Source of the DNA: Gammaproteobacteria bacterium
GTDB lineage: Bacteria; Pseudomonadota; Gammaproteobacteria; Steroidobacterales; GCA-2729495
NCBI GenBank assembly: GCA_020851975.1
Contig: JADZBS010000043.1
Span: forward strand, 1 to 51,915
DNA: 51,915 nt
Direction of reading: 5' to 3'
In this document: positions 7,879 to 8,967 of the stretch, piece by piece
Numbering within the stretch: the stretch's first letter is position 1
Layout of the letters: every line of letters starts with the position of its first letter
The notes under the pieces: generated by a model
Databases searched by the model: none
Told to the model about the DNA's origin: nothing
Seen by the model: only the letters and a program-made list of their open reading frames with translations
Position numbers and translations under genes: made by a program

Positions 7879-8967
7879 CTGGCGGGCCGAGACATTTCGA
7901 GCGCGCTGTCAGACCTGCGGCTGGAGCATTTCCGCTGTTTCGCGACTGCGGAACTGGCGTTTGCCGGGCGGCTCAACGTCATCACCGGCGCCAACGGGGC
8001 CGGGAAAACTTCCCTGCTCGAGGCGATCTACCTCCTCGGTCGCGGCCGCTCCTACCGCACGGCTGATCCCCGCCACCTCGTTCAGTCCGGGGCCGGCGCT
8101 GCCCTGATCGCCGGTCATGCCGTCGAACGGGCCGGGCGGGTTCCGCTGGGTATCCAGATCAGCGCAGGCGCGTTCGATATCCATGTCGCTGGCCGGCCAG
8201 GAGCATCGGCTGCGGATCTGGCCGAGAGGCTGCCAGTCCAGGCACTCCACGCGGACATCGGGACGCTGGTCCACGGGGGACCCGAGGCCCGCCGGCGCCT
8301 GATGGATTGGGGTGTGTTCCACGTGGAACATCGCTATCTGGAAGAATGGCGCCGATTTCGCCGGGCGCTGCTCCAGCGGAACACGGCCATTCGTGAAAAT
8401 CGCGCCGACGACGTCCTGGCGGTCTGGGAGGAGCAGGTTGCCGCAGCGGCTGAGACGGTCCATGCACAACGCGAGCACTACCTGGAGCGGCTGCGGCCGG
8501 TTTTTCACCGCCTGGCCGCTCGGCTGCTCGATGCGGATGTCGCCCTGGACTACCAGCCCGGATGGCCCGTCGAGCAGGATCTCCGGGAGGTCCTGCGGCA
8601 GGGCCGGGAATCGGACCGGCGCCTGGGCTATACACGGACCGGTCCCCAGCGGGCCGACCTGGTGTTGCGAATCCAGGATGAGCCGTCGCGCTGGCGGGCG
8701 TCGAAGGGACAGCACAAGCTCCTCGGCGCTGCGCTGGTGCTGGCCGAATGCGAATTGGTGGCCGAGAACAGCCAAAAGGGGGTTGCCCTGGTCGTCGACG
8801 AGCCGGCCGCTGATCTGGATGCGACACGACTGTCGGCCTTGATGGACGTCATTCTTGCCAATCCGGCGCAGGTTTTCCTGGCGGCGATCTCGGCGCGCAC
8901 CCTCCCGTTGACCGGCGAGCCCGCGATGTTCCACGTGGAACACGGCCACGCTAAAGCTTTGTTATAA
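7879..8967 (+). CDS. recF: DNA replication and repair protein RecF (non-canonical start)
   Basis: RecF is an SMC-like ATPase that helps load RecA at gaps. The reading frame gives an uninterrupted Rec[10 protein letters not shown], Walker [10 protein letters not shown], the Q-loop region, the ABC signature-like [15 protein letters not shown], and Walker [13 protein letters not shown]. Between the in-frame stop at 7849 and the Walker A there is no ATG, GTG or TTG. Possible starts are CTG 7879, ATT 7894 and CTG 7906. I chose 7879 because GAGG, overlapping the dnaN stop, lies eight bases upstream; 7906 would give MSDLRLEHF, closest to relatives. A short frameshift near the dnaN-recF junction is an alternative. 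Two parS palindromes lie inside the gene. Confidence 0.92.
8315..8330. other. parS centromere-like site 1
   Basis: The 16-bp perfect palindrome TGTTCCACGTGGAACA matches the ParB-binding consensus TGTTNCACGTGNAACA of chromosomal parS sites. It lies within recF and there encodes the VFHVEH stretch. Confidence 0.93.
8927..8942. other. parS centromere-like site 2
   Basis: A second, identical TGTTCCACGTGGAACA palindrome lies near the 3' end of recF, 612 bp from the first. It again reads MFHVEH in the protein. The identical amino-acid pattern at two unrelated places in RecF shows that the DNA site, not the protein, dictates the sequence. Confidence 0.93.

Follow-up and report, generated by a model that had tools for sequence, protein, structure and literature searches.

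A probable chromosomal centromere within recF of a gammaproteobacterium, and the apparent constraint of its parS word on RecF

Described parS systems and the recF locus

The closest described counterpart of the locus presented here is found in Pseudomonas aeruginosa, where parS1 and parS2 are reported to lie in recF (PMC5521831, PMC3909081). Both have been shown to bind ParB and to have a role in segregation, for which any single one of parS1-4 is enough (PMC4368675). The wild-type words of parS1 and parS2 are given as TGTTCCACGTGGAACC and TGTTCCACGTGGAACA, and the silent mutations tabulated for them fall on every third base, position 2 of parS2 being left untouched (PMC4368675, Table 1). As far as the tabulated words go, this pattern fits V-FHVE-P and M-FHVE, that is, the same reading frame as in our locus. 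The same two words code for DWGVFHVEP and AMFHVEHG in the RecF of Pseudomonas typographi (L250). Unlike the locus described here, in which we found two sites, both in recF, P. aeruginosa is described as having ten putative parS, four of them near oriC and two of those four outside genes. As a kind, parS inside recF is thus already known; it is the breadth of the phenomenon, the constraint on coding and the persistence of the sites after the gene has gone that add interest.

Other systems resemble our locus in part. In Xanthomonas citri, parS TGTTCCACGTGGAACG is also near the origin, but at the 3' end of dnaN, where at least one element is described, and the account of that element does not mention a site in recF (PMC3937727). 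A related 16-bp word is reported for parSc1 of Burkholderia cenocepacia chromosome 1, and binding by ParBc1 in vitro survives symmetric changes only at positions 1-16 and 5-12 (PMC5450999). Caulobacter crescentus likewise has ParB/parS near the origin; unlike here, its native parS cluster lies apart from a hot spot for a parS transposon, which spans recF and gyrB and for which the paper gives no explanation (PMC5815017). The Enterobacteriaceae and Pasteurellaceae are reported to have no par genes, and the dnaA-dnaN-recF-gyrB cluster is described as usually origin-proximal (PMC3909081). In searches of open-licence papers in PMC, we found no account of a class-wide constraint of parS on recF or of sites outliving recF, and we claim no priority. 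The likeliest earlier table of these parS positions is reportedly that of Livny et al. from 2007.

Two palindromes in recF and the partition genes of the same assembly

The window, by which we mean the whole stretch of 51,915 nucleotides that was analysed, holds the genes and sites listed in Table 1. The initial annotation had claimed that an identical 16-bp palindrome matching the parS consensus occurs twice within recF, and both parts of this claim were borne out. The two copies are exact and 612 bp apart, and with as many as 3 mismatches allowed the window has no further match; shuffling it gave a mean of 0.16 matches, with two or more in 1 of 100 shuffles. In the whole assembly (2.85 Mb, 150 contigs, 92% complete), the palindromic consensus TGTTNCACGTGNAACA matches these two sites alone, and a scan with TGTTYCACGTGRAACA at up to 2 mismatches found no copy beyond them, although further parS may be missed in it. 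The many random copies that would have spoken against a centromere are therefore not seen in this assembly. The encoded contexts differ, DWGVFHVEH being internal in RecF and AMFHVEHG C-terminal, so that one open frame carries FHVEH at two unrelated places, as had also been noted. Both sites sit within the dnaA-like/dnaN/recF/gyrB cluster, which as a rule is origin-proximal.

Table 1. Coordinates of the two sites and of the genes around them in the window
Feature	Coordinates	Strand	Remarks
dnaA-like ORF	5190..6518	+	Upstream of dnaN; used as query, matches beside dnaN in relatives
dnaN	6768..7868	+	Upstream neighbour of recF; TIGR00663
recF	7894..8967	+	Hosts both sites; open frame 7873-8967; TIGR00611; ATT start at 7894 is a guess
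parS site 1 (putative)	8315..8330	.	TGTTCCACGTGGAACA, inside recF; reads V-F-H-V-E-H; core at the same codons in 179/226 class loci
parS site 2 (putative)	8927..8942	.	TGTTCCACGTGGAACA, near the recF 3' end; reads M-F-H-V-E-H; core in 168/226 class loci
gyrB	8997..11414	+	Downstream neighbour of recF; NF011501, TIGR01059

The recF product scores well above the cut-off of its family profile (311.6 bits against 172). No ATG, GTG or TTG occurs in its frame ahead of position 8302, although far upstream of this point the frame is already open and RecF-like. The column that holds methionine in 146 of 226 class RecF proteins is AGC here (7900-7902), and relatives in the genus have ATT or TTG near the start position. 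The missing usual start (window 7858-8302) may reflect a rare start codon, translation coupled to dnaN or an error in the sequence. Elsewhere in the window, positions 57-1388 resemble the end of HsdR of type I restriction systems (TIGR00348, 54.5 bits against a cut-off of 284.55) and adjoin an mnmE-like ORF, a place in which mnmG would be expected.

As initially stated, parAB is not in the window, and we located it elsewhere. ParB is encoded on a separate contig (G000:C6; TIGR00180, 195.6 bits against a cut-off of 58.45), so that a lack of parB, which would have told against parS, does not apply. A ParA-like ATPase, whose best NCBIfam match falls under that family's own cut-off, adjoins parB, and the ORF next to this pair is a candidate RsmG, judged from its sequence. 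The genome thus has a presumed cognate ParB together with a ParA-like partner.

Taking all of this together, we give a probability of roughly 90% to the reading that the palindromes are parS sites of the chromosome, to which ParB would bind, and form a double-coded centromere within recF of the dnaA-dnaN-recF-gyrB cluster. The earlier suggestion of a centromere written into a coding sequence is supported by the unique exact words and the presence of ParB and, across the class, by conservation and codon choice. ParB would load at the two recF sites and spread from there over neighbouring DNA, and ParA would move the ParB-bound sites along with the freshly replicated origin. Most of the class genomes sampled have the word fixed at the same two RecF codon positions, with the residues FHVE or FHVK following it, and where recF is absent, presumably through loss, a parS word is usually still present between dnaN and gyrB.

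Alternatively, the main role of the sites could be to silence the dnaA-dnaN-recF-gyrB operon in a ParB-dependent way, and not to act as a centromere. In P. aeruginosa, an excess of ParB is reported to reduce the expression of most genes in the interval PA0003-PA0015 (PMC5521831). We consider this improbable, as the parB-null and parS-null mutants of that study are described as altered only in PA0010-PA0015, near the intergenic parS3/parS4 (PMC5521831), and one of parS1-4 alone supports segregation (PMC4368675).

Conservation of the word and codon choice in RecF

The parS reading was followed through the genus, the family and the class. Two genomes of the same genus, each a single contig (G022 and G020), carry two perfect sites in recF and one further word apiece with 2 mismatches, at a distance of about 67 kb in G022 and of 2.1 Mb in G020. 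These extra words are at chance level, since a reversed control pattern also gave one in each. A genome from another genus (G007) has one perfect word and seven with 2 mismatches, one of the seven at recF site 2, against four for the control. Across 40 genomes of the family, 32 hold 46 perfect TGTTYCACGTGRAACA sites and eight hold none; 45 of these sites are inside recF and the last (G014) is just downstream of it, positions having been compared by hand.

The class sample comprised 276 genomes of 90% completeness or more (family codes up to f158), and all class counts are raw, with kinship ignored. RecF was matched in 236 of them, in ten too weakly for a whole RecF, and the remaining 226 loci were used; named loci found with FHV-containing patterns are examples only and were left out of all counts. 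The core GTTYCACGTGRAAC is present at both sites in 151 loci, at one or more in 196 and at neither in 30 (each site separately in Table 1), a core being counted for site 2 when it aligns with that site or falls in the last 45 codons. All but one of the 151 have two cores, at a spacing of 597-669 bp, and the other has three. In recF, 352 cores were counted over 0.246 Mb, while 1.05 Mb of flanking DNA gave 36. Where recF lies beside dnaN or gyrB, the core was found in 196 of 220 loci, and where it lies beside neither, in 0 of 6, these six coming from only three families. Aligned across the class, RecF shows the motif to be class-wide, and the initial question of whether FHVEH is lineage-specific is answered in the negative.

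At both sites, the choice of codons goes with the DNA word. FHV(E/K) is present in 184 genomes at site 1 and in 175 at site 2, and is coded TTY CAC GTG RAA in 179 and 168 of these, respectively, against 12.7 expected in each case from each genome's own recF codon usage (raw counts, kinship ignored). When 357 RecF columns were scored for deviation in codon choice, the site codons made up seven of the nine strongest. In 16 of the 17 loci that have kept site 2 and lost site 1, FHVE is also gone. Relative to each genome's own usage, the Phe codon is biased wherever the word encodes Glu, at either site, and also where site 1 has Lys; where site 2 has Lys there is no bias (11 TTC against 12.0 expected). 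Selection seems to act on the DNA word and not on the protein residues at both sites, and the claim that the parS word constrains the sequence of RecF finds its support in this codon choice. The converse, namely that FHVE is a functional motif of RecF and the parS-like DNA a by-product of its codons, is very unlikely. It can draw on the location of site 1 within a conserved RecF stretch (DWG.F), and on the RecF of E. coli, from a lineage without par genes, which reads DWGCFHNEP and KMFTVEKG at the two places. It does not account for the excess of parS codons over expectation, for residues that vanish along with the word, or for sites that exist where recF is undetected.

Variation in the word is found mainly at positions 1, 5, 12 and 16, with a few variants at 2 and 6-11. 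Compared by word alone, it is largely at the positions tolerated by ParBc1 of B. cenocepacia, 1-16 and 5-12 (PMC5450999). The core is present in 195 of 221 recF loci from genomes with a ParB match and in 1 of 5 (L124) from genomes without one, two of these five being of one genus; 26 of the 30 loci lacking both cores are from genomes with a ParB match. A CACGTG-centred word could in principle be read by another DNA-binding protein or a methylase, CACGTG being a common palindromic core. We find this hardly credible, as the full 16-bp word, with the positions at which it tolerates change, fits ParB/parS and recF cores are rarer without a ParB match. There is covariation between positions 5 and 12 (p 7e-10 at site 1 and 0.003 at site 2, base composition accounting for part); position 5 is silent in RecF, and a change at position 12 turns Glu into Lys. 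Least credible of all is a conserved RNA hairpin in the dnaN-recF-gyrB message: the 5/12 pairs of site 1 are C-G, T-G and T-A (92, 61 and 26) with no C-A, as an RNA stem allows, but site 2 has 11 C-A cases, the CACGTG centre, where the loop would lie, is almost constant, and there is hardly any variation in the stem apart from 5/12.

In 12 listed loci without both cores, each site still resembles the parS word. The centre is altered alike at both sites in four of them (L043 CACATG, L314 CATATG, L076 CATGTG, L161 CACGTAG); in L352 both sites share GTAG and differ at position 6, and in the remaining seven the sites differ. That only 4 of the 12 change alike counts somewhat against our reading. 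When ParB was compared between 6 genomes with the word altered at positions 6-9 and 22 others, 3 of 113 conserved columns differed in 5 of the 6 altered-word genomes, one of them in the region of the recognition helix. At that column, the aligned Caulobacter ParB has threonine, as do two altered-word variants; the Caulobacter protein binds standard parS. At the C-terminal place in recF, E. coli MG1655 (L361) has TGTTTACCGTGGAAAA, with 3 differences from a parS word, in this one genome perhaps a relic of a lost centromere.

Sites in genomes where recF is undetected

Fifty genomes of the class sample were candidates for lacking recF, 40 with no RecF match and ten with matches only at E above 1e-6; the core occurs somewhere in 22 of the 40. 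Twelve of the fifty were dropped for having no DnaN match (eleven drafts and the tiny single-contig genome G284), and ten for a gap not bounded by both dnaN and gyrB. In the other 28, dnaN and gyrB are adjacent with recF undetected, and the gap contains the core in 21, as a pair in 13 (spaced 25-106 bp, except for one pair at 722 bp) and singly in eight. No core was found in the gap of G130, G237, G055, G189, G131, G238 (which has one core elsewhere) and G132. Two of these, G055 and G189, are tiny genomes with no ParB match, and the 961-bp gap of G132 has a near-match to the core. In G213 and G132, where the gap is long, it may contain a RecF too diverged to detect. Among the ten genomes with unbounded gaps, G139 and G050 have the core beside gyrB, and G040 and G073 stop at a contig edge. 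G138, G244, G291, G198 and G069 lack gyrB within 1.5 kb and showed no core at that place; a genome-wide search of G138 and G198 gave none either. A fragment of recF adjoins dnaN in G217, which was for that reason rejected as recF-less.

A FastTree phylogeny of DnaN+GyrB from 212 genomes (midpoint root), which included 26 of the 28, places the recF-less genomes in 11 clades, and parS is in the gap in nine of these. The branch joining the recF-less clade to its neighbour has a support of at least 0.9 in seven of the nine. As recF is present in most of the class, we infer that it was lost, perhaps in six to nine events. It is probable that the gammaproteobacterial centromere is an ancient two-site recF locus, which dictates residues of RecF class-wide, sometimes shifts both sites together as the word drifts and outlives recF in several separate losses.

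Such a locus would be a broad case of chromosome segregation fixing, at the level of DNA, the residues of an unrelated protein. It comes with natural controls: where the word is lost the residues are mostly lost, and where recF is absent the word is mostly kept. FHVE in gammaproteobacterial RecF should not be taken as a protein motif. The locus also has a bearing on why recF remains next to gyrB, and it makes recF a place to seek parS in draft gammaproteobacterial genomes.

Individual recF-less genomes show further arrangements. G231, scored as having neither ParB nor recF, yet keeps two sites. Five cores of G237 (L191; G237:C1 24179-32785) lie outside the dnaN-gyrB gap, with about 21-30 kb between them and dnaN. 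In G139 (L195 1287-1773), twelve parS cores are arrayed at 43 bp spacing upstream of gyrB.
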